From assembly GCF_900107775.1 (NCBI RefSeq), contig NZ_FNRF01000002.1:685129-749128 (forward strand): DNA of 64,000 nt. Direction: 5' to 3'. This DNA is from Xylanibacter ruminicola (lineage in GTDB: Bacteria > Bacteroidota > Bacteroidia > Bacteroidales > Bacteroidaceae). The notes under the pieces are model-generated. The model ran no database searches and had not been told where the DNA came from. It worked only from the letters and a program-made list of their open reading frames with translations. This document shows, piece by piece, positions 5,904-18,314 of the stretch; within the stretch, counting starts at the first letter, position 1, and each line of letters starts with the position of its first letter. The position numbers and the translations under genes are program-made.

Positions 5904-7247
5904 ATGAACGAAACAATTTGCGCACTCGCTACCGCCCCAGGCGGAGCAATAGGAATCATAAGAATCTCAGGTACTCAAACACTTGAGATTCTTTCTCGTG
6001 TATTTACCAAGGACCTCACACAAGCCCAGCCCAACACCATTCATTATGGGCATATTAAGAACGGCGAAGAGATTGTCGACGAGGTTCTGGTGAGCGTATT
6101 CCGCGCCCCCCACTCTTATACGGGCGAAGAGAGCGCAGAGATTTCATGTCACGGCTCGCGTTATATCCTGAACAAGGTGTTATCGCTGCTGATTGCCAAC
6201 GGTTGCCGCCAAGCTGGTCCGGGCGAGTTTACCCAGCGTGCCTATCTGAACGGCAAGATGGACCTCTCGCAGGCCGAAGCTGTAGCCGACCTGATAGCCT
6301 CTACCAATCAGGCTACTCATCAGATAGCTATGAGTCAGTTGCGCGGTCATTTTTCGTCCAAACTGGCCCAGTTGCGCGAACAGCTACTCAAGCTCACCTC
6401 ACTCTTAGAACTGGAGCTCGACTTCTCCGACCACGAAGATCTGGAGTTTGCCGACCGCAGCGAGCTGATGGATTTAACGAAAACGATTGACAATCACATC
6501 ACCCGATTAGCCAAGAGCTTTGAAACGGGCCAGGCACTTAAGCAAGGTATCCCTGTAGCCATTGTGGGCAAGACCAACGTGGGAAAATCCACCCTTCTGA
6601 ATCGTCTGTTAAAGGATGATCGCGCCATTGTGAGCGACATTCATGGTACCACCCGTGATACCATCGAGGACACCATCGACATTAATGGTATCACCTTCCG
6701 CTTTATCGATACGGCAGGTATCCGACAGACTCAGGACGAGGTAGAACAGATAGGTATTACCCGTACTTACGCTGCTATCGACAAGGCCCGCATCGTGCTT
6801 TGGCTGATTGATGCGGAGCCTTCGACAGAAGAATTTAACAACGTATTACAACGCACTGAAAGTAAGAAACTTATCGTTATCAAAAATAAAGCCGACAAGG
6901 CAGATAACAATAGTTACAATCTGTTAAATCGTCCATTTATCACCATCAGTGCTAAGTTTGGTACCGGTATTGAGGAGTTAGAGCAAGCCATCTACGAGGC
7001 AGCGAATATTCCAGCCCTAACCGAAAACGATATAATTGTTACCAACGCCCGTCATTACGACGCTTTGGTGCGTGCTCACGACAGCATCCAACGCGTTATC
7101 GACGGTCTCCAAATGCAACTTAGCGGAGACCTTCTGAGTGAAGATCTCCGCCAAGCCCTTGACACCCTCGCCGAAATTACCGGCGGTCAAATCACCCCCA
7201 ACGAAGTTTTAGGAAATATCTTTAAAAACTTCTGCGTGGGAAAGTGA
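5904..7247 (+). CDS. mnmE: tRNA uridine-5-carboxymethylaminomethyl modification GTPase MnmE
   Basis: A 447-residue GTPase that works with MnmG to modify the wobble uridine of certain tRNAs. The N-terminal folate-binding domain opens with TICALATAPGGAIGIIRISG. The G domain has G1 GKTNVGKST near residue 222, a GTTRD switch, DTAG and NKAD. The protein ends in the near-universal FCVGK, whose cysteine is catalytically important in the family. The nucleotide sequence of this tail, TTCTGCGTGGGAAAGTGA, is repeated downstream at about 19.0, 30.1 and 48.6 kb, marking the gene's 3' end as an integration site. The gene is intact, as expected when an incoming element restores the tail. Confidence 0.97.
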   Translation: MNETICALATAPGGAIGIIRISGTQTLEILSRVFTKDLTQAQPNTIHYGHIKNGEEIVDEVLVSVFRAPHSYTGEESAEISCHGSRYILNKVLSLLIANGCRQAGPGEFTQRAYLNGKMDLSQAEAVADLIASTNQATHQIAMSQLRGHFSSKLAQLREQLLKLTSLLELELDFSDHEDLEFADRSELMDLTKTIDNHITRLAKSFETGQALKQGIPVAIVGKTNVGKSTLLNRLLKDDRAIVSDIHGTTRDTIEDTIDINGITFRFIDTAGIRQTQDEVEQIGITRTYAAIDKARIVLWLIDAEPSTEEFNNVLQRTESKKLIVIKNKADKADNNSYNLLNRPFITISAKFGTGIEELEQAIYEAANIPALTENDIIVTNARHYDALVRAHDSIQRVIDGLQMQLSGDLLSEDLRQALDTLAEITGGQITPNEVLGNIFKNFCVGK

Positions 7248-7251
7248 TTTT
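7230..7251 (+). other. Attachment-like site 1 (3' end of mnmE)
   Basis: The core TTCTGCGTGGGAAAGTGA encodes Phe-Cys-Val-Gly-Lys-stop of mnmE. Bases 7231-7251 are identical to 48580-48600, so sites 1 and 4 form the outermost direct repeat, flanking all the accessory DNA. In Enterobacteria the trmE/mnmE 3' end is the known chromosomal site of the SGI1 island family. A role as attachment site here is inferred from the repeats. Confidence 0.75.
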
Positions 7252-7481
7252 TTGCAAAGAAAAGCATATTATCTGCAAATATAGCTCATAAATCGCATAA
7301 TTTCAGGCATTTAAAATTTCGCCCATTTTTGCAGATTTTTGATTTTTAACTTCGATATTTGCAGATTTTCGCCCATTTTGTCCCTCAGCTGTCCCCCGGG
7401 ATAGTCAAAAATAGCCGAGGGACAAAAATATCTCATAGGTGGTGATTTACATTTTTGCTTGTGATTCTAGAATAATAAAAA
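7248..7481. other. Left-end non-coding region of island A
   Basis: There is no gene here. An 11-bp perfect inverted repeat, TTTTGTCCCTC (7376-7386) and GAGGGACAAAA (7417-7427), frames a short GC-rich stretch. The motif ATATTTGCAGATTTT (7355-7369) recurs exactly at 19010-19024, next to the right end of the same island, and a variant TTTTTGCAGATTTTT lies at 7326-7340. The TGTCCCTC motif also recurs several times at the right end (18570-18973). These look like recombinase- or structural-protein-binding repeats belonging to the element. Confidence 0.6.
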
Positions 7482-8645
7482 CTACTTTTTGAATTGCCCC
7501 TTAGTCAATACTTTATTGACAAACATTGATGGTTGCCAACCATTGATTATTTTATCGCCAGCAAATCCATCTAAGCAAGTAAGTGCTCCACCTGCTATTG
7601 GGCCTATTATTGGTATCAACCCCGTAACAACTTGTGCTAAGGTCCTTATTCCCTTAACCCATAATTTGTTGCTATTTTGATTTTGTATAGCTTTATATAG
7701 TTCACCAGATATTGGTTGACCTTGTGGGATTTTCGAAAGCCACTCGCGAAATTTCACACTATCGTCGCAATTCAGGTTTTTTACCAATTCATTTGGGGAA
7801 ACCAAGCCATCTACGAAAGACTGCCCTGGAGATAAATAATCATTGGCTGTCATTTCATGAAAATGATCTATATTGTCTATAGTTTTGTCTACCTGTTTTA
7901 TACACTCATTTATTCGGAGCTTATACACTTCACTCCAACGCTGGTTCACCATCATTTCTGCCTGTAGCTCAGAGGCTAAATAACAATCCATATGGGTTTC
8001 ACCTAATGCCATTAGAATTGTAGAATATCCAAATGTACCAGAATATCCATTCTGTTGATGCATCTCATTCAATTCATTTATTCGAAGATTACCACCTATT
8101 TTATAAAATGTCATAAAGGAAGATACGGATGGGTCTGCCTTAATACGAATATCTTCAACATTCTGATAATTCGGATAATATTGTTTAATAAATACTTGTG
8201 TTACCTTCGACAATAAATGCTCATTTTCGACATCTTTATATAATGAATCATTTATCTCTTTGGGATAGCGATATTCTGACAAAACTTTTGAGAATCTGTC
8301 AGCAAATCTTTTGTTTTCTTTGAAATCCTTGCTTGTTTCTTTATGAAAATTAAATAGAAGTTCATCAATAGAACGGAAATTATGGCGAAACAAACCTACA
8401 GAATCAAACTCCCCATATTTGGAAGCACCTATGTGCTGGTCACAAGGGTGGACAATCAAACGCTTTGACGTTATTAATTCATAAAAAGAGTCTTCGCCAA
8501 ATACTGCAAGTAATTGCTTCAGTTCAAACTGAGAAATGACAACATGCACTTCGTTAAAGTAGAACATCATATCTACAATATCTGCTATGGATAGATATCG
8601 TTCTGCCACATTAGAACCTGACTTTATAAGAATCTTATTGAACAT
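7482..8645 (-). CDS. Unrecognised protein with hydrophobic glycine-rich C-terminal segment
   Basis: A 387-residue protein that I do not recognise. The first 300 residues look soluble and mixed alpha, with no catalytic motif I can name. Near the C-terminus is a hydrophobic, small-residue-rich stretch (TLAQVVTGLIPIIGPIAGG, then ALTCLDGFAGD) that could insert in a membrane or form a hairpin. It is the last gene of the minus-strand defence-like operon, 9 bp after a small reading frame. A membrane-acting effector working with the upstream PD-(D/E)xK protein is possible but only inferred from position and the hydrophobic end. AT-rich compared with the core genes. Confidence 0.6.
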   Translation of the reverse strand: MFNKILIKSGSNVAERYLSIADIVDMMFYFNEVHVVISQFELKQLLAVFGEDSFYELITSKRLIVHPCDQHIGASKYGEFDSVGLFRHNFRSIDELLFNFHKETSKDFKENKRFADRFSKVLSEYRYPKEINDSLYKDVENEHLLSKVTQVFIKQYYPNYQNVEDIRIKADPSVSSFMTFYKIGGNLRINELNEMHQQNGYSGTFGYSTILMALGETHMDCYLASELQAEMMVNQRWSEVYKLRINECIKQVDKTIDNIDHFHEMTANDYLSPGQSFVDGLVSPNELVKNLNCDDSVKFREWLSKIPQGQPISGELYKAIQNQNSNKLWVKGIRTLAQVVTGLIPIIGPIAGGALTCLDGFAGDKIINGWQPSMFVNKVLTKGQFKK

Positions 8646-8653
8646 GTCTATAC

Positions 8654-8779
8654 TTATTTATAATAATAACTTCGAATTACCCTATTAATCCTGCAGAAAT
8701 ACATTATCAATTGCTCAGCCACCTCCTGCAACTTCTGCGGAATCTGCTTAGCAAAAGATATTAAGAAAGCAGATATCAT
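8654..8779 (-). CDS. Small reading frame, possible relic of an AbiEii C-terminus
   Basis: A 41-codon frame between the PD-(D/E)xK gene and the 387-residue gene. Its middle, FAKQIPQKLQEVAEQLI, resembles the C-terminal end of the AbiEii protein in the same operon (LAKLNPNKLQEEKEKLI). It may be a leftover from an ancestral AbiEii gene that once occupied this position, or a genuine small protein. No independent evidence of translation can be seen. Confidence 0.35.
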   Translation of the reverse strand: MISAFLISFAKQIPQKLQEVAEQLIMYFCRINRVIRSYYYK

Positions 8780-8787
8780 CACTAATA

Positions 8788-10551
8788 CTATTTTCGTATG
8801 TATTTCTCCCAATGTTTGGAAAACTCATCAAGCCCTTCATTATGTTGAGTTTTCATGTATTCTGGAAAGGAAGCTAAACCATTAAACAAATCTGTCAGTT
8901 CATTACTTTTCTCAAAACGTTCTATTGACGACTTCTTATAGTAGTCATCAAGATATGACTTAAAATTATTATTCGAGAAAGTTTTAGCATATAAACATAT
9001 AGTAGCTATATCAGTAAGGACTACAGGCATAATATTTGAACCGTCAATAAGAGAATATTTGCAGTATTCTTCTTTCTGCCAATACTGAAGGAAATTTTTC
9101 ACGCCATTCATTGTTTGTTTCACGTCAGCTAAAACAAGTATCGGATATACAATCGCATCTTTAGGACAAGCCGAATCCCATCGTTTTTGAAACTCTCCAG
9201 TTCTTATTCTTTGAACATTCTTCAGTAATTGTCCAACACCTTTCGGTTTTCCTTTTTCATTACGAATTAAATTCAAGTAAAGGAAATCAAGATAATCATT
9301 AAGCCTACCATACTCTTTAGTGTAATCTTTAAGTTTTATATCCTTATTCTCGAAAAGAAAGACTACATTATTATAGCGCGCGTAAAAATCAGGAGCGCCA
9401 CAATTTAACGCATCTTTAGATTTATCTATCTTTACGCATTCGTTCTCACATAGATTAATATCTGATTGAGAAAGAAAAATCTCTTTTAATGTTTGAGTAA
9501 AAAGACAACCTTCGGAAAAATCTGTGGTGTATAGCTTGTTGAAATCTTGCCCTTTAAACCCTAAAACATTTTCTGCAATTTCACGAAAGTCAAAATAAAG
9601 GCTATTATATATATGCTCAATCCATAAATTATGATTGAACAAGAAAAAGCGAGTCTTATCCATACGAATCAAAGGACGCGAACGAAATTTTGTAAAATCA
9701 CGATTTTCTTTCTTGGGCACATAGTCATTTATACCCAAAGACGATTCAATTGCAACCCTATATGTTATATTTCCATCGGGCATCTTACACTTAGCAAAAT
9801 CAATTTCACCTACATGAGAATTAAAAATGCATTCCAATTCCCATATCGCCTTGGGGTAATACCACCATTTAGAATCAAGTCCATACTTATCACAAAACAA
9901 CGGTACTATTTTACTAAACACAGTATGTTCAGCTGCAAATTCAAAGAGCCGAATACACTTAATAGTCTGAGTAACCAGTAACATATGATTATCATGGTAG
10001 TTATTAGATGAGAACTGTCTTACCATTGTAGCTGCATAGAAAAGTTCTGGATTTTCTTCTAATGTATAAGGAGATACACCGCCACCACGTTCACATGTAA
10101 TTTGGTTTGCAGCATAAAGAGATTTGAAAAAATTCTTTTCAATTTTGCCTTTATTATAATTATTAACCTTATATGTTGTAGCAAAAATATCCCTCATCAA
10201 ATATAGTAAAGAATCTTCCGATGCTGCCAAATAAGAATGGGGCTGTTTCTTTGCACGATTGACAAGTTTATTAAAACGCGATATAACGTCATTAATATAC
10301 TTGGCATTGTCTTGGCTAAAAAAGAACCCAAGTGCATCTATATCCTTTCTTCCAGGCCCGTAGTAAGGATTATAGAATGGTTTGTTGACAAGTTTCTCTG
10401 CCATATTACTAACTAAGTGCATCAAGGCTTCACGTTCAAGAGTGCTAACGCACTTTCGAATGTTTGGCATCATCCGTTCATGGAACAAATCGCGATATCC
10501 CACAATTTGTCCAATACCAGAGCTAGAATATATAGGAACATTGTTAACCAT
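8788..10551 (-). CDS. Large protein with PD-(D/E)xK nuclease-like motif
   Basis: A 587-residue protein not recognised as a whole. Near residues 387-403 it contains APDFYARYNNVVFLFENKD: Pro-Asp, thirteen residues with a hydrophobic strand, then Glu-Asn-Lys. This is the layout of the PD-(D/E)xK restriction-endonuclease-like core. The rest shows no named domain; the N-terminal 350 residues are probably a recognition or regulatory part. It starts 32 bp after the AbiEii gene on the same strand, so it is probably co-transcribed with abiEi, the DUF262 pair and abiEii. A DNA-cleaving defence effector is a reasonable inference; a degraded or inactive nuclease fold is the alternative. Confidence 0.6.
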   Translation of the reverse strand: MVNNVPIYSSSGIGQIVGYRDLFHERMMPNIRKCVSTLEREALMHLVSNMAEKLVNKPFYNPYYGPGRKDIDALGFFFSQDNAKYINDVISRFNKLVNRAKKQPHSYLAASEDSLLYLMRDIFATTYKVNNYNKGKIEKNFFKSLYAANQITCERGGGVSPYTLEENPELFYAATMVRQFSSNNYHDNHMLLVTQTIKCIRLFEFAAEHTVFSKIVPLFCDKYGLDSKWWYYPKAIWELECIFNSHVGEIDFAKCKMPDGNITYRVAIESSLGINDYVPKKENRDFTKFRSRPLIRMDKTRFFLFNHNLWIEHIYNSLYFDFREIAENVLGFKGQDFNKLYTTDFSEGCLFTQTLKEIFLSQSDINLCENECVKIDKSKDALNCGAPDFYARYNNVVFLFENKDIKLKDYTKEYGRLNDYLDFLYLNLIRNEKGKPKGVGQLLKNVQRIRTGEFQKRWDSACPKDAIVYPILVLADVKQTMNGVKNFLQYWQKEEYCKYSLIDGSNIMPVVLTDIATICLYAKTFSNNNFKSYLDDYYKKSSIERFEKSNELTDLFNGLASFPEYMKTQHNEGLDEFSKHWEKYIRK

Positions 10552-10583: not shown

Positions 10584-11495
10584 TTAGTTTAGAACAAAAA
10601 TCAATTTCTCTTTTTCCTCCTGCAACTTATTCGGATTCAGCTTAGCGAGTTTCTTCAGATTGAGTAGCTTCCATTGTACTGAAGGATAATCCTTGAAATA
10701 TTCAAACTCATAGCCATCCCATTCTGGCTGACCTGATTCGAAACTAATCAGGAACTTCTTATCCGCTTCTGTCATCAACGACTTGACATCACTGATGAGT
10801 TTTGCGCGAGTTTCTTCAAACTCTTCGTATGTAAAAGGAATATTTGTCATGCCAGCAAACTGGTTTTCCATTGCTTCCCGCTGGTCAATCAGGCCTGGAA
10901 CAAAAGACTCATGAATGGGCCTATCGCTGCCAAGTAAGCAGAAGATAAGTCCCTCTCGGCATTCACTCAATGGAATATCCATATACTTCACATCAAACAA
11001 ATCACGAGGATGCTGACGTGATAACGCTGCTGCTATCTTGCCACCATATAATTGAGTTGGGGGCACAACATTTGCCTCGCAAAAGAGAGAAAACTCGTCT
11101 TGCGCCTTCGCGCTCAATGGAAATGTTTGAACATTACCACCTATTATTCCTCTCTTAGTTTGATTGACCTCTATCTTCACCTGCTTACCTCGATACTCGC
11201 ATAGTAGTTTGCAGGTATTGAAATTGGGTACGATGTGCATCCCTTTGAAAGCTTTCTTTGCCTTTTCCGCAATGGCTTTCAGATGCATATTAATGTCATC
11301 CAAACTTGTCTGACGGTCAGCCAATGGAATATAGGTTAAATCTATATCTACGGAATAACGTGGCAGGTCCTTCAAGAACAAATTGATGGCGGTGCCACCA
11401 TGTATGGCAAATACCGTATCTTCCATCACTATCGGAATGAGACGGAGTAGCAACTCAACCTTCTGTGCGTAAACACTTGATCTTATATCATTCAT
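10584..11495 (-). CDS. abiEii: AbiEii/AbiGii family nucleotidyltransferase toxin
   Basis: About 303 residues. The nucleotidyltransferase hallmark appears as AIHGGTAINLF followed by YSVDIDLTY (the Asp-x-Asp metal ligands), and the family motif QLYGGKIAAALSRQHPRDLF lies in the middle. AbiEii proteins are the toxins of type IV abortive-infection systems. The ATG at 11495 is preferred; it overlaps the stop of a 24-codon frame (11488-11562) that copies the end of the AbiEi antitoxin gene. In usual abiE operons the toxin directly follows abiEi, but here two DUF262 genes lie between them. Full length, with motifs intact. Confidence 0.88.
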   Translation of the reverse strand: MNDIRSSVYAQKVELLLRLIPIVMEDTVFAIHGGTAINLFLKDLPRYSVDIDLTYIPLADRQTSLDDINMHLKAIAEKAKKAFKGMHIVPNFNTCKLLCEYRGKQVKIEVNQTKRGIIGGNVQTFPLSAKAQDEFSLFCEANVVPPTQLYGGKIAAALSRQHPRDLFDVKYMDIPLSECREGLIFCLLGSDRPIHESFVPGLIDQREAMENQFAGMTNIPFTYEEFEETRAKLISDVKSLMTEADKKFLISFESGQPEWDGYEFEYFKDYPSVQWKLLNLKKLAKLNPNKLQEEKEKLIFVLN

Positions 11496-11562
11496 ATTCT
11501 GCAAGTTCTTTTGAGATTGTCATATTATACTTATTGATATACTTTCCTGTAGGCGTTATCAT
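11488..11562 (-). repeat. 75-bp copy of the abiEi 3' end, forming a 24-codon coupled mini-frame
   Basis: This segment matches the last 75 bp of abiEi (15102-15176) at 70 of 75 positions by hand alignment. It encodes MITPTGKYINKYN followed by MTISKELAEYE and stop. Its ATG overlaps the DUF262/DUF1524 stop as ATGA, and its stop overlaps the AbiEii start within ATGAATGA. It is therefore an open mini-frame able to pass ribosomes from one gene to the next. It records how the DUF262 pair came to lie between antitoxin and toxin. Confidence 0.85.
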
Positions 11563-13592
11563 ATGTTCATAATAATCTCAAGCATTTTCTCTTGATGCCG
11601 AACCATATCATCAACATTCCATTCTAAGCCAAATGGACGTTTCAAATATTCATTTATGACACCAGCATCGTAATTGTCCTGGCATATTTGTAACATAATT
11701 CGAAACTTTAGGGAAGCGACACTTACTTGATTGGACTTTGTATCAAGATAGCGATTCTTTTTATCAATTGGATTCCAGTTAGAGCCTGAACTATTTGCAT
11801 CAGAACCTATCATTGCAAAATTACCAAAGCAATTTATATCTTGCGAACTAATTGGCATATTGTCCCCTGCTTTAGCTTGTGGATAATAATGCTCCAAACT
11901 TTTTCGAGTTCGAGAGAAATAGAAATTCTTGAATGGTTCCAACTCAAAGTCACTACAACCTAATGCGCTGAAAAACTCTATTCTATTACGCGAACCCTTC
12001 TTTTCTTTATTACTTCGAAGTTCTTCTGCATATTTTTTCCATAGCTTATAATCTGTATAGTTAAATACATAGAGAGGTATATTGCATGAACCTACAGGAT
12101 AAACGCTATCAAAGCAACGATCAACGTCCTCTAATTCAACATTTAATTCGCCGCCATTAAGAATAGTTTCATCGAAACTATTAGGCTTTGGTTGATTGAT
12201 TTCGTTGAGTTTACTTGCATCGAGATATACATCAAAGAAATACTTGTCTGCAAGTTTTCTCAAGAATTCTAAATAATTATCAAGGTCCCAATCTTCGAAT
12301 AAATGAAGTAAGCAATAGAACAGATAGTTCTTTCTTTGCTTGGGTGTAAAAGAAACTTCAAACATGGAAAGAAGTTGAATAACCTCGTTTTGTCGTGCTT
12401 TATTACCCTCGTATAAATCCTTTAGATAAGCAGCCTTATTACCTTTCTTATAATAATATTGCAACTTCCATGGATTTTCAATGACTCTATCTTCACCATT
12501 TGCGTGGTGTATAACATAATTGTCAAGGAAATATTTAGCAGAAAGGAGATTATATGCAAAGTCTTTAACAAACTCTGGAGTAAGATTTACCTTCTCGAAC
12601 TCCTTAATGAGTTCTTTATCATCAAGCGTAAAACTCAAAGGATTGAAGTCTTTTTCATCCTTCAGCCTCGTAATTTTCAGTACAATCAATAGAAAATTCG
12701 GAAAGTCTATTATTGGCTGGAAATGATCGTTATTGTCAATCACATCATCTTTATCTATCTTTTTTATAGGCGAATTTAAAAACTCTGAAATGGTTTTCAT
12801 ACCTAATGATGAAGATGTATCTACATCAGAACTTGGAAACTCGTCGAAAGACTCTATATCAAAGCTTTCCATAGTTTTACCAAAGACACTTGTCATATCT
12901 GGGAGTTTCTGCTGAATATAGAAACTCATATCACTACAAGCCTCCCATATACGGCTAAACTTCTGCATTGCATTGTCATCGCCTATTAACTGTTCGCTGA
13001 GTTTAGCTTTTACTATTTCATGCTTTTCCAACTGCTCACCACGAGAGTTCATAACTTCAAAATAGTGATTTAAATCCACATCTTTCGGCACACGATAATG
13101 AATGATATGTACCTTGTTCAAGAAAAAATCCTTGAATGTATCTATTTCATCATTCTTTTCGCCAACAATGTCTTTGAGAGCTTCTTTTGCATAATTGAAC
13201 CCATCGACAATACCAAGGTCTTTTTCTTCACCAAACTTAGGCATCTTTTCTATTGTCACTGCTGAAACTTTTCTTGCAGAATAAGTAAGAGTATTTGGAA
13301 TAGTTTCTATACCCAAAGCTTTCAAAATAATGTAGATTGTTGTCAATCGTTGCTGACCATCAATAACCTCAAAGATATTCTCATCACGCTTATATGTGAC
13401 AAGAGTTCCAATATAGTAAACCGACTTCTTCAAGGAATCGTACACATCTTTTATCAAGGCGTAGATCTCTTCACGTTCCCAAGCATAATTACGCTGATAT
13501 ATAGGAATCTTATATATTATAGAAATCCCTCTGTTTGTGAAATATATATCGTTAATAGAACACTCTTCAAGAATATTATTCAAATCTTTCAT
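11559..13592 (-). CDS. DUF262 plus DUF1524 (HNH) GmrSD-like protein
   Basis: About 677 residues. The N-terminal DUF262 domain has IYQRNYAWEREEIYALI and the signature VIDGQQRLTT near residue 77. The C-terminal part carries the DUF1524/HNH pattern: LEHYYPQAK, then CFGNFAMIG and SGSNWNPIDKK. DUF262-DUF1524 proteins include GmrSD and SspE, which restrict phage DNA using NTPase-linked HNH cleavage. The start at 13592 (MKDLNNILEE) is chosen because an ATG follows the upstream gene's stop by 5 bp; a TTG further upstream is less likely. It ends with an ATGA overlap onto the abiEi-tail copy. Probably works with the DUF262-only protein upstream. Confidence 0.85.
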   Translation of the reverse strand: MKDLNNILEECSINDIYFTNRGISIIYKIPIYQRNYAWEREEIYALIKDVYDSLKKSVYYIGTLVTYKRDENIFEVIDGQQRLTTIYIILKALGIETIPNTLTYSARKVSAVTIEKMPKFGEEKDLGIVDGFNYAKEALKDIVGEKNDEIDTFKDFFLNKVHIIHYRVPKDVDLNHYFEVMNSRGEQLEKHEIVKAKLSEQLIGDDNAMQKFSRIWEACSDMSFYIQQKLPDMTSVFGKTMESFDIESFDEFPSSDVDTSSSLGMKTISEFLNSPIKKIDKDDVIDNNDHFQPIIDFPNFLLIVLKITRLKDEKDFNPLSFTLDDKELIKEFEKVNLTPEFVKDFAYNLLSAKYFLDNYVIHHANGEDRVIENPWKLQYYYKKGNKAAYLKDLYEGNKARQNEVIQLLSMFEVSFTPKQRKNYLFYCLLHLFEDWDLDNYLEFLRKLADKYFFDVYLDASKLNEINQPKPNSFDETILNGGELNVELEDVDRCFDSVYPVGSCNIPLYVFNYTDYKLWKKYAEELRSNKEKKGSRNRIEFFSALGCSDFELEPFKNFYFSRTRKSLEHYYPQAKAGDNMPISSQDINCFGNFAMIGSDANSSGSNWNPIDKKNRYLDTKSNQVSVASLKFRIMLQICQDNYDAGVINEYLKRPFGLEWNVDDMVRHQEKMLEIIMNI

Positions 13593-13597
13593 TGTAA

Positions 13598-15109
13598 TCA
13601 ATTTTTATAGTAACCATTTATTTGAAAGAAATACAGATAGTTTTCATACACACCATCTTTCTCATCCTTTAGATCCTTCAATGTTTCTCCTTTGCCACTA
13701 TACTCATAACACTCCTGCGCCCATCCGTCTTTAATGTCATCATTTGAAAGAGGATTTAGCATGTCAGCTAAAGCACTCAATAATGAGGTCGGTGAATCTT
13801 GCTTAACAATGAGTTTATACATATTGAATGCATTGATTTTATCACTCCATCCCATAATGTAATTCTGTGCAGAAAGCCAACCGAGATTAGTGTATTGGGC
13901 TCTCAATGAATAAGCCCAAATAAACGCGTAGATAACAAATTGTTCAAATAGTTCTATATCTTCTTTTGTAGGATATGTTTCTGGGCAGAATCTATCAACG
14001 TAAAGTAGAACAGAGGTGTCAAACATCAGACGTACTATACTATTACCTATTCCTTTTTTGAAATGTCGATCCAAAGTTTTAACTATAATGTTGTCGTTGA
14101 TATAGAACCCTTCATACTTATTATTGTTCTGAATATCCTTTAATATCTTATAATAGTGCTTTGTATATTCAAAGAACGGCTTACCTGCAATTATAGGAGT
14201 GTTCAATTGGAACGCATTTACATTTCGAGTTCCTGAAACAAAAGGCATAGCAGAAGAGTTGACCATATCTGCATAACAATAGGCACTCTTATAGAATTGG
14301 GCATAAGGCGTTCTTGCCGAACGCGTAATACCTTTGAACATATGGATATTATGCTCATTTAAAACATTTGCTTTATTGCCACTTACCCATTCTTTGATAC
14401 GATATAGGTAATTACCAAAGAAATCTGCTAAACCACTTTGTGAAACCTGTTCCCAATCCTTTACAATCTTTTCTGTCTCATCCTCACTAATGTCATCCAT
14501 TTCGCGAAGATGGTATGCTTTCAACAAATCATGAGGGTAAAGAGCCTTACCTCGTGCATTTTGAGAATCAAAGAATTGGAATGCTTCCGATACGTCTGAT
14601 GTTATAACAACAATCAACTCGCACCTATTCTCTATGTAGTCCTTTAGACGTTCCATCTCTCGTTGGTGTTCGATAGCCGAATCACTTTCTTTCGATTTTA
14701 AACCAACCCTTCGGAAAAGTGCATTATAGTTGTTGGCAATGTTATGATTATTATGCTCATTGTCATATATTTTCTGCTGCAAGAACTCGATTCCATCTTC
14801 TCCTAATGCAGTCAGAAGTAGTGAGAATGTTATGGTACGTTGTTGACCATCAACAATATCATATTGATTCTTATCATTTAACTTGTGAAGGATAAGTGTA
14901 CCTACTCTGTATCTTTCCTTGTTGCTATTCTTCGCATCAATAATGTCATCAAGCAATTGTATGGCATTACGAGCCGTCCATTTGTATGGGCGCTGATAAA
15001 TAGGCACACAAAGGCTTACGTTCTTAATTGGTTCCTCGCCATTAGTTATGGTTTTACGAAGGAGCAAATCACCTATAGTTGTTATTGATAATGTCAGATT
15101 ATCATTCAT
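13598..15109 (-). CDS. DUF262-only protein
   Basis: About 503 residues. The N-terminus contains IYQRPYKWTARNAIQLL and the DUF262 signature IVDGQQRTITF near residue 85, plus FFDSQNARGKALYPHDLLK, another family landmark. No HNH pattern is visible at the C-terminus, unlike its neighbour. DUF262 pairs, one with and one without DUF1524, occur in defence islands and are thought to sense or cut foreign DNA. The ATG at 15109 overlaps the abiEi stop by 8 bp (ATGAATGA), so translation is probably coupled to the antitoxin gene. AT-rich like the rest of island A. Confidence 0.83.
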   Translation of the reverse strand: MNDNLTLSITTIGDLLLRKTITNGEEPIKNVSLCVPIYQRPYKWTARNAIQLLDDIIDAKNSNKERYRVGTLILHKLNDKNQYDIVDGQQRTITFSLLLTALGEDGIEFLQQKIYDNEHNNHNIANNYNALFRRVGLKSKESDSAIEHQREMERLKDYIENRCELIVVITSDVSEAFQFFDSQNARGKALYPHDLLKAYHLREMDDISEDETEKIVKDWEQVSQSGLADFFGNYLYRIKEWVSGNKANVLNEHNIHMFKGITRSARTPYAQFYKSAYCYADMVNSSAMPFVSGTRNVNAFQLNTPIIAGKPFFEYTKHYYKILKDIQNNNKYEGFYINDNIIVKTLDRHFKKGIGNSIVRLMFDTSVLLYVDRFCPETYPTKEDIELFEQFVIYAFIWAYSLRAQYTNLGWLSAQNYIMGWSDKINAFNMYKLIVKQDSPTSLLSALADMLNPLSNDDIKDGWAQECYEYSGKGETLKDLKDEKDGVYENYLYFFQINGYYKN

Positions 15110-15863
15110 ATTCTGCAAGTTCTTTTGAGATTGTTATATTATATTTATTGATGTACTTTCCTGTAGGCGTAACCATAAACCTGGATGTACCAAGATTGAT
15201 ATTCTCCAGTTTCAAAGCTTTATACCAGGAGTGGCTAGCCTTTTCTGCCATATAGAGGAACAGGCGCTTCACTTTTTGCGATGTGCATGCCTCTAATAAT
15301 GTCTGAACCAACTTGGGACGTAATGTAGTTAAGCCCTCCATGATGTAATAGATGTCAAGCAAAGATGACGATGCATCCGGCAAGTTCAGACACTCTAATA
15401 TGGCACGCTCTGGAGATGACACAAGCAAATCATGTTGATTGACAGTCATGTTTTCTACACCCAAAAGTTCATCACCCAGGAAAGAAGTTGTCATATATTT
15501 TATAGTCATATCCCAATCCTCTTTTAGCAACCATGAAGGCAACTTATTGCTTTTGTCTGTAAACAGATAAGCTTTAGGCTTTCCCATTGACAGGTAATGG
15601 GAGTATCCTCGAAGTTCCAAAGCTGTATATGCACCTACCACACAACTCTTACTAAGTTGCGTGTTATATGACGATACAGCAGCAAATAAACTTGGTTCTG
15701 TTCCATGTATCTTATAGACCCCTTTAGATATACGGTCAAGCCATCCGCTTTTCATATAAGCATACTGACCACGTGCATCTAATCCCTGACCTGAAAGCCA
15801 CGAACCAAACAAGACCGATTCATTGGGTGCTGCCTCTAATATTTGCTGTATTTTTGTAGCCAT
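15102..15863 (-). CDS. abiEi: AbiEi-family antitoxin
   Basis: A 253-residue type IV antitoxin-like protein. The N-terminal part (SWLSGQGLDARGQYAYMKSG and WLDRISKGVYKI) is the winged-helix region typical of AbiEi, which represses its own operon in characterised cases. VVGAYTALELRGYSHYLSMG and the ISSPERAIL-like VSSPERAILECLN region follow, as in full-length members. It is the first gene of a minus-strand run that includes the DUF262 pair, abiEii and two unknowns. A -7-like box lies about 40 bp upstream. Its last 75 bp are duplicated just before abiEii. Confidence 0.85.
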   Translation of the reverse strand: MATKIQQILEAAPNESVLFGSWLSGQGLDARGQYAYMKSGWLDRISKGVYKIHGTEPSLFAAVSSYNTQLSKSCVVGAYTALELRGYSHYLSMGKPKAYLFTDKSNKLPSWLLKEDWDMTIKYMTTSFLGDELLGVENMTVNQHDLLVSSPERAILECLNLPDASSSLLDIYYIMEGLTTLRPKLVQTLLEACTSQKVKRLFLYMAEKASHSWYKALKLENINLGTSRFMVTPTGKYINKYNITISKELAEYE

Positions 15864-16163
15864 TTTCGTTAATTTTATGAATACCAGTCTAAATTTGTTG
15901 CAAAAATACTCTTTTTGTTTTGTCTAACCAAACATTTCACTCAAATATTGGCAGTTTTTATATAAATTTATCTCCAAATTCGCAATTTTAGCGAATTTAA
16001 GAACAAAAAGCACGCATAAAACTATAAATAGAAATACAATTGCCACCCAAAGAAAAAGAGGCCATTGAACATAAAAAAACGCTTATTGTACTTGTGTCAT
16101 CAAATGATTTGTCCCACAAGTATTCTCACATTTTATTGGATTTAGAAGAAAAACTATACAAAT
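15864..16163. promoter_or_regulatory. Divergent intergenic region: abiEi promoter-like box and hairpin
   Basis: There is no gene here. On the minus strand, TATTTTTG (complement of 15901-15908) fits the Bacteroidota -7 element and lies about 37 bp before the abiEi ATG. A perfect 8-bp inverted repeat, AAATTCGC (15976-15983) and GCGAATTT (15991-15998), could be an operator or hairpin. A second imperfect inverted repeat, ACTTGTG / CCACAAGT, lies close to the PHP gene. Promoter role is inferred. Confidence 0.5.
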
Positions 16164-16733
16164 ATGAAAACTCCTAATTTCGTACATCTTAATGTACATT
16201 CACATTATTCCATTCTTAACGGATGCTCCACCATCCAACAAATTGTGGACTCTGCTATAAAAAACAGAATGCCAGGCATTGCCATTACTGACAATGGTAA
16301 TATGTTTGGTATTATGGAGTTTATTGACTATGTAGCTCGCATCAATAAAGAAAGACAAGAGAAGGGAAAGAAACCCTTCAAGCCCATTATAGGATGTGAG
16401 CTGTATGTGGCAAAACACGGCCCTAAAGAACAGAAGAATGGAATCAAAGATTATAAGGGCTATCATCTGACTGTTCTTGCCAAGAACCTACAGGGATACA
16501 AGAATCTTATCAAGATAGTCAGCAATGCCTGGACAGACGGATTCTATATGGCTCCTCGATCTGACCGGATGGATTTGGAGAAGTACCATAATGGACTGAT
16601 TGTTCTGTCTTGCGGTTTTGGCGGTGAGGTATTCACTCATGCCACGAAGGAGGATATGACTGCATTAGATGAAACCATCAAATGGTACAAACATGTATTT
16701 GGCGACGACCACTCCAGTCAGGACAAGCAATAA
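16164..16733 (+). CDS. Stand-alone PHP-domain fragment of DNA polymerase III alpha (DnaE) type
   Basis: The 189 residues correspond to the N-terminal PHP domain of bacterial DnaE only, ending abruptly in DDHSSQDKQ. Family landmarks are FVHLNVHSHYSILNG, TDNGNMFGIMEFIDYV and KPIIGCELYVA. In DnaE proteins with an active PHP site the first is HLHxHS and the second TDHGN. Here both of those histidines are Asn, so the metal site is probably lost. The frame is open and otherwise well kept. It is either a truncated dnaE remnant brought by the island or a retained decoy or interaction module. The rest of the polymerase is absent. The gene converges with the next gene. Confidence 0.72.
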   Translation: MKTPNFVHLNVHSHYSILNGCSTIQQIVDSAIKNRMPGIAITDNGNMFGIMEFIDYVARINKERQEKGKKPFKPIIGCELYVAKHGPKEQKNGIKDYKGYHLTVLAKNLQGYKNLIKIVSNAWTDGFYMAPRSDRMDLEKYHNGLIVLSCGFGGEVFTHATKEDMTALDETIKWYKHVFGDDHSSQDKQ

Positions 16734-17825: not shown

Positions 17826-18314
17826 TTAAAGCGAAAATTCTATAGATTTTGCAAAGTCCTTTCTGTCTTCCAGTCCCTTTACATGACCAAGATTGTTCAT
17901 TGAGCCATGGATGTTCTTCAGATAGAAAGTCTTGAAGAGCGGATGGTCAGGGTTGTTCTGATAGAGTTCGTGCACGATACTGCTCTTCTCCATAATCAGC
18001 TGCTTCACCTGGCGGTTGTCCTCAAACACCACCTCTGCACTTAGCATACATACATAGTAGGGCTTGCTAAGATAAGCCATCAGCTGGTCTATATAATAGG
18101 TTGCAGGTACTGAACCACGAAGAACGTAATGAACAGGAATGATTACATAAAAACCTCTATACACATTGGCTATAGTCTTATTTGAACATAGCCTGGAAAG
18201 TTCATTCTGAAGAATCTGTTCAGAAGAGCACAAGCCAGCAACTCTCACTTCTTCGATAGAAAACGTGGGATAACCATGAATGGCTCGGTCTTCAATCCAC
18301 TTTTGCAATGTCAT
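17826..18314 (-). CDS. Shortened AbiEi-like (winged-helix) antitoxin
   Basis: 162 residues resembling only the N-terminal half of AbiEi antitoxins: a helix-turn-helix region (FSIEEVRVAGLCSSEQILQN), NVYRGFYVIIP and the family-like YYIDQLMAYLSKPYYVCMLS. It then departs from the family and stops. No AbiEii gene follows; a RICIN protein and a membrane protein take that place. It may be a truncated antitoxin surviving as a DNA-binding repressor of its new operon, or a family with a genuinely shorter antitoxin. It lies at the right edge of island A's gene content. Confidence 0.6.
   Translation of the reverse strand: MTLQKWIEDRAIHGYPTFSIEEVRVAGLCSSEQILQNELSRLCSNKTIANVYRGFYVIIPVHYVLRGSVPATYYIDQLMAYLSKPYYVCMLSAEVVFEDNRQVKQLIMEKSSIVHELYQNNPDHPLFKTFYLKNIHGSMNNLGHVKGLEDRKDFAKSIEFSL

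Follow-up and report, generated by a model that had tools for sequence, protein, structure and literature searches.

Two DUF262 genes nested between abiEi and abiEii in an AbiE locus of Xylanibacter ruminicola and related Bacteroidales

Results

A variant AbiE locus

The window analysed here, a 64-kb stretch of Xylanibacter ruminicola DNA, carries on its minus strand four genes in the order abiEi, D1, D2 and abiEii. The antitoxin and toxin genes are thereby 3.6 kb apart, with two genes of the same strand between them. From the promoter downstream, the locus comprises:

15901-15932 (-): Bacteroidota-type promoter, TTTG-N20-TATTTTTG, upstream of abiEi
15863-15102 (-): abiEi, 253 aa, AbiEi antitoxin and predicted autorepressor (Pfam AbiEi_3_N 5e-21, AbiEi_3 3.5e-49; PADLOC AbiEi 8.4e-78)
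15177-15100 (-): repeat copy 1, the true 3' end of abiEi with the start of D1
15109-13598 (-): D1, 503 aa, DUF262/GmrSD_N (VDGQQR intact) followed by DUF7834 (Pfam)
13592-11559 (-): D2, 677 aa, DUF262/GmrSD_N (DGQQR) followed by a GmrSD_C-like HNH domain (EHYYPQ ... GN) (Pfam)
11563-11486 (-): repeat copy 2, a duplicated abiEi tail that carries the abiEii start region
11562-11488 (-): relic 24-codon ORF (abiEi C-terminus), MITPTGKYINKYNMTISKELAEYE, linking D2 to abiEii
11495-10584 (-): abiEii, DUF1814 nucleotidyltransferase toxin (Pfam 4e-22; PADLOC 1.6e-104)

A preliminary description of this DNA had placed a DUF262 pair exactly at the abiEi/abiEii junction, and the coordinates, open frames and Pfam and PADLOC calls bear this out. 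It had also allowed for an inactive abiEii or DUF262 gene; in the window all four frames are open and the family motifs are intact in all four genes, those of abiEii being GGTAINLF, SVDIDL, KIEVN and RQHPRDLFD in the alignment. The antitoxin joins a winged-helix N-terminal domain to an antitoxin C-terminal domain (AbiEi_3_N and AbiEi_3, both over their cut-offs), and the toxin is a DUF1814 nucleotidyltransferase with its conserved motifs. The two genes do not form the adjacent bicistronic pair of AbiE; since two other genes separate them, the locus is a variant AbiE. A relative with an empty site, L031, is ordinary.

The promoter pattern occurs six times in the 64-kb window, against 1.04 matches expected, and one match lies before abiEi. 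No second match was found by the pattern search between 10584 and 16100, and none inside the operon. The related abiE loci that were aligned have a similar upstream region, promoter included. AbiE operons are bicistronic, with genes that overlap by 4 nt in S. agalactiae, and are autorepressed by AbiEi (PMC3985639). Given this repression and the one promoter, AbiEi should also limit D1–D2: the pair and the toxin should all be under AbiEi autorepression, from the single abiE promoter. If AbiEi does repress the cargo, one antitoxin would set the level of two unrelated defences.

Several other features surround the operon. At 17826-18314 (minus strand) the N-terminal part of an AbiEi from a different family (PADLOC 4e-34) marks a second abiE locus, which is broken and lies 2 kb upstream; no abiEii was found beside it. 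The plus strand encodes, at 16164-16733, a DnaE-like fragment of 189 aa with the PHP domain, which shares 54% identity with the full-length dnaE of the host; it looks like a foreign, truncated copy adjoining the operon. A 587-aa protein (8788-10551, minus strand), with a GAPDF..ENKD stretch resembling PD-(D/E)XK nucleases, has no match in Pfam, PADLOC or NCBIfam. Comparison of the chromosomal flanks in relatives (mnmE, RND pump) does not settle the borders of the island.

D1 and D2 resemble restriction proteins

Both proteins have the DUF262 domain with DGQQR that is typical of the GmrSD type. The HNH part belongs to D2 only: its GmrSD_C (DUF1524 HNH) score in Pfam is 22.6 bits, just below the cut-off of 23, and the residues D78-G-Q-Q-R82, E567-H568 and G590-N591 are invariant over 38 sequences. 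The DGQQR and E-H/G-N motifs have been assigned to NTPase and HNH nuclease activity, respectively (PMC4619093). The model of D2 (mean pLDDT 84) matches known proteins over its full length, with VIA Z of 15.4 to DndI, 15.2 to SspE and 10.0 to BrxU. No HNH domain was found in D1, whose best Foldseek matches are SspE and DndI; with a mean pLDDT of 73, this model is too weak to say what DUF7834 does. An NCBIfam search returned no names.

Judging by these domains and models, the D1–D2 pair most likely restricts modified DNA as a two-protein system of the GmrSD/SspE/DndI/BrxU kind; D1 would then combine NTPase and sensor roles, and D2 those of sensor and nuclease. No DndC match was found in the host genome, which makes it somewhat less likely that the pair senses phosphorothioates in concert with a resident Dnd system.

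Nested, ordinary and stand-alone loci

We surveyed 398 genomes of the genus and 399 of the family, comparing abiE coordinates by hand. About 50 loci of the same abiE subfamily are ordinary, with adjacent genes, and none of them holds a different cargo at the abiEi/abiEii junction. Some 70 D1–D2 pairs stand alone, in Bacteroidota, Bacillota and others. The nested order is complete in four loci (the window, L064, which is the same as G044, L065 and L066), runs to the contig end in L254 (G710, another genus) and is decayed in three more; all nested loci are in Bacteroidales. In L076, from Bacteroides fluxus, abiEii is matched only over its first 25 codons and the D1 motif reads DGLQR. D2 is truncated and abiEii frameshifted in L032, and in L073 the abiEi tail, D1 and D2 are joined to the truncated toxin of a different AbiE family. 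The search for further abiEi-DUF262-DUF262-abiEii orders that had been proposed thus yields three complete, one to a contig end and three decayed; with nested loci in other Bacteroidales, Bacteroides fluxus included, the arrangement is not specific to one strain.

That the locus is an assembly artefact or a pseudogene locus is hard to credit. Three near-identical relatives are metagenome-assembled genomes, as such a reading might have it, but the window genome consists of 10 contigs and is 99.98% complete, all window frames are open, and B. fluxus, a named strain, has abiEi-D1-D2 followed by the start of abiEii.

The 3.4 kb downstream of the junction in the empty site L031 match nested L066 at 84%; as the two share this stretch, one site seems to be present in both a filled and an empty allele.

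Further loci merit a mention in their own right. L073 (3812-8212) has the cassette, flanked on both sides by a scrap of abiEi tail, stranded in an abiE locus of a second kind. A relative of the 587-aa protein, 24% identical and with a weak NERD match, lies downstream of abiEii in L032. In G764 (L253), abiEi (8980-9747) is followed 80 nt on by a single DUF262–DUF1524 gene (7189-8898), with no abiEii match at this pair; such AbiEi/GmrSD-like neighbours are a related but different, independent case. The abiEii of L256 (1932-6711) and L257 (5177-5947) is split after residue 48, its C-terminal part being 92 kb away; three tyrosine recombinases adjoin the N-terminal part, in a partly masked region. 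In L192 (3403-8370), a second copy of the 3' end of an abiEii follows about 4 kb downstream, beyond other genes; this might be a further insertion that duplicated a gene end.

Viral contigs contain no D2, and phage records give only weak partial matches to the cassette; on plasmids, the only matches are below 60% identity, to D1 or abiEi. One predicted viral contig carries an ordinary abiE (L259, 1147-2815) near phage lysis-like genes.

A duplicated antitoxin tail at the toxin start

The tail of abiEi is present twice, as a direct repeat of 78 nt with 73/78 identical positions and copies 3614 nt apart. All five differences lie within the first 43 nt, the last 35 nt being identical. The repeat is far beyond chance; the remaining direct repeats in 9 kb measure 20-34 nt, at 68-88% identity. 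The duplicated last 75 bp of abiEi (70/75) reported in the preliminary description correspond to this repeat with slightly narrower limits.

Ordinary loci have an overlap of the abiEi stop with the abiEii start, ATGAATGA or ATGAATAA/G, which places the toxin start region within the antitoxin gene. In the window, the D1 start overlaps the abiEi stop by 8 nt (ATGAATGA) and the stop of the relic ORF overlaps the abiEii start in the same form: both overlaps had been described as kept, and both are present. The ATG of the relic in turn overlaps the D2 stop by 4 nt (ATGA). D2 and the relic, and the relic and abiEii, are linked in the window by these stop/start overlaps.

The spacer ahead of the toxin differs elsewhere. 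It has degenerated in L064–L066 to some 25 nt of tail before the toxin start, with no ATG-started ORF; in L076 about 29 nt were lost between two AATATGA repeats, and L073 retains just a scrap resembling the abiEi tail. Such spacers indicate that conservation concerns the toxin start region, some 25 nt ahead of the abiEii start, and not the 24-codon ORF, which is not conserved. The proposal that inserted pair and toxin remain translationally coupled consequently holds in part: the overlaps are there in the window, but ahead of the toxin they are not maintained in L064-L066. At the ordinary, window and L064 junctions, no RNA fold at the toxin start is better than those of shuffled sequences.

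One could imagine a functional fusion, in which the toxin–antitoxin and restriction-like proteins cooperate: as a guard, with phage attack on restriction freeing AbiEii, and with addiction protecting the restriction genes. The predicted single operon, the stop/start overlaps of 8 nt that the window has at either abiE junction, and the toxin start region retained in complete loci would suit it. Against this, D1-D2 are found without abiE in most genomes, and abiE is found without D1-D2, no shared domain or dedicated linker was found, and B. fluxus has lost most of abiEii yet retains abiEi, D1 and D2, which shows that loss of the toxin need not take the other genes with it. We think cooperation of this kind unlikely. 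The linked loss of antitoxin and restriction genes envisaged in the preliminary description is a conjecture.

Boundaries and origin of the cassette

Stand-alone and nested D1–D2 pairs are similar from the D1 ATG to the D2 stop codon, with unrelated flanks; the cassette, as delimited by this alignment, runs from start codon to stop codon. ATGAAT is common to the start of D1 (ATGAATAAT..., seen likewise in stand-alone L077) and that of abiEii (ATGAATGAT...); at the other joint, the end of D2 (...TTATGAA) is similar to TTTATGA in abiEi. The relic tail is nearer to other abiE alleles (76/78 to L175/L196) than to its own sister copy (73/78), in keeping with the earlier suggestion that the duplication is old or came from another abiE locus.

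We propose that D1 was joined after abiEi at the shared ATGAAT, in a cassette that would have arisen once, and that the D2 end was joined some 78 nt upstream in an abiEi sequence, duplicating the tail. Staggered joining at such short matches (microhomology) would yield the duplication in one event. The duplication would also have resolved the overlap, leaving abiEi with its complete 3' end and abiEii with the start region that ordinarily sits within abiEi: it would seem that duplicating the overlap allows an overlapping gene pair to be split while both genes stay whole.

The reverse history, an ancestral nested order from which ordinary loci derive by cassette loss, would likewise scatter nested loci on abiE trees. 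It is nevertheless very improbable: ordinary junctions are an uninterrupted overlap with no trace of D1 or D2 and no cassette scars, in more distant relatives the abiE genes also lie side by side, and recent gain is needed to explain near-identical cassettes within diverged abiE (see below).

A probable single insertion and spread between abiE alleles

In the D2 tree, the six nested genes analysed group together as one clade with moderate support (85/88; 87% of bootstraps). The abiEi genes of nested loci are scattered among those of ordinary loci, and a single clade is rejected for them (p-AU 4e-6, tail left out) as for the abiEii genes (p 0.015); recombination among the abiE genes themselves may also scatter these trees.

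In L064, L065 and L066 the cassette is 96–99.7% identical and abiE only 88–92% (abiEi about 92%, abiEii 88%), with a small risk of assembly mixing, all three being metagenome-assembled genomes and two from one project. Between L064 and L066, differences amount to 7/1504 in D1, 7/2039 in D2 and 1/53 in the spacer, versus 58/762 in abiEi and 105/897 in abiEii; D2 has 7–10 differences in 2039 between the pairs compared. Fisher tests of cassette versus abiE at fourfold sites give p 4e-25 (L064/L066) and 4e-13 (L064/L065). Identity steps fall at abiEi nt ~552-656 and abiEii nt ~130-210 for L064 and L066, and inside D1 and inside abiEii for L064 and L065; taken together, the abiEii steps span nt about 130-250. 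Outside abiE, the three loci share little or nothing.

The single D2 clade, the scattered abiEi genes and the identity steps within abiE point to one insertion, after which the cassette probably passed among abiE alleles through homologous recombination, abiEi and abiEii serving as the two arms.

The window itself presents a counter-point. About 36% of fourfold sites differ between it and the other nested loci, in cassette and abiE alike; with both equally diverged, its own operon may have been inherited and stable for long, or transferred whole. Compared with the other complete nested loci, the window has dN/dS of 0.05-0.13 in all four genes, which are thus under purifying selection. The arrangement had been called maintained. 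That it is old agrees with the divergence at fourfold sites, and maintenance with dN/dS; simple inheritance with the abiE host does not stand, as the cassette appears to have moved between alleles by recombination.

A defence pair might have entered a defence-rich region by chance and been carried along because neither abiE gene was broken; the nested order would then lack functional meaning. Nesting is indeed rare, a handful of loci against about 50 ordinary adjacent ones, most D1-D2 pairs stand alone, and several nested loci are decayed (abiEii truncated in L076 and gone in L073, D2 truncated and abiEii frameshifted in L032). However, four loci are complete, with all genes under purifying selection and in divergent abiE alleles, and the cassette re-entered abiE loci instead of only decaying. 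We regard chance as a serious contender, if somewhat short of an even prospect.

Spread by recombination after one insertion also admits a broader reading, which we offer tentatively and with some doubt: abiE genes might be homologous landing arms for defence cassettes, such that a restriction module moves between alleles across species, takes the AbiEi-controlled promoter and gains the toxin as a stabiliser. If true, this would be an integrase-free route for the spread of defence genes. The locus bears on how such genes can travel in the absence of an integrase, since flanking toxin–antitoxin genes appear as homology arms, with breakpoints visible inside them.

Comparison with known systems

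Literature searches, with subscription papers and preprints outside their scope, returned no paper on AbiEi, AbiEii and DUF262 together and nothing relevant on defence genes between toxin and antitoxin.

In structural and profile comparisons, D1 and D2 match the phosphorothioation-sensing nucleases SspE and DndI best; sequence identity is, however, about 10-15%, and no DndC was found in the genome. With GmrSD/BrxU type IV restriction (PMC4619093, PMC10952713) the pair shares the DUF262 DGQQR, the E-H ... G-N HNH motif in D2 and the match to BrxU (VIA Z 10). It differs in having two DUF262 proteins, one with no HNH domain found, and in the GmrSD_C of D2 being just under the Pfam cut-off. Finally, the locus has in common with the type IV toxin–antitoxin system AbiE (PMC3985639) both genes, their order and motifs, the overlapping start region and the single upstream promoter; whereas known operons are described as bicistronic, here two unrelated genes and a duplicated antitoxin tail intervene.
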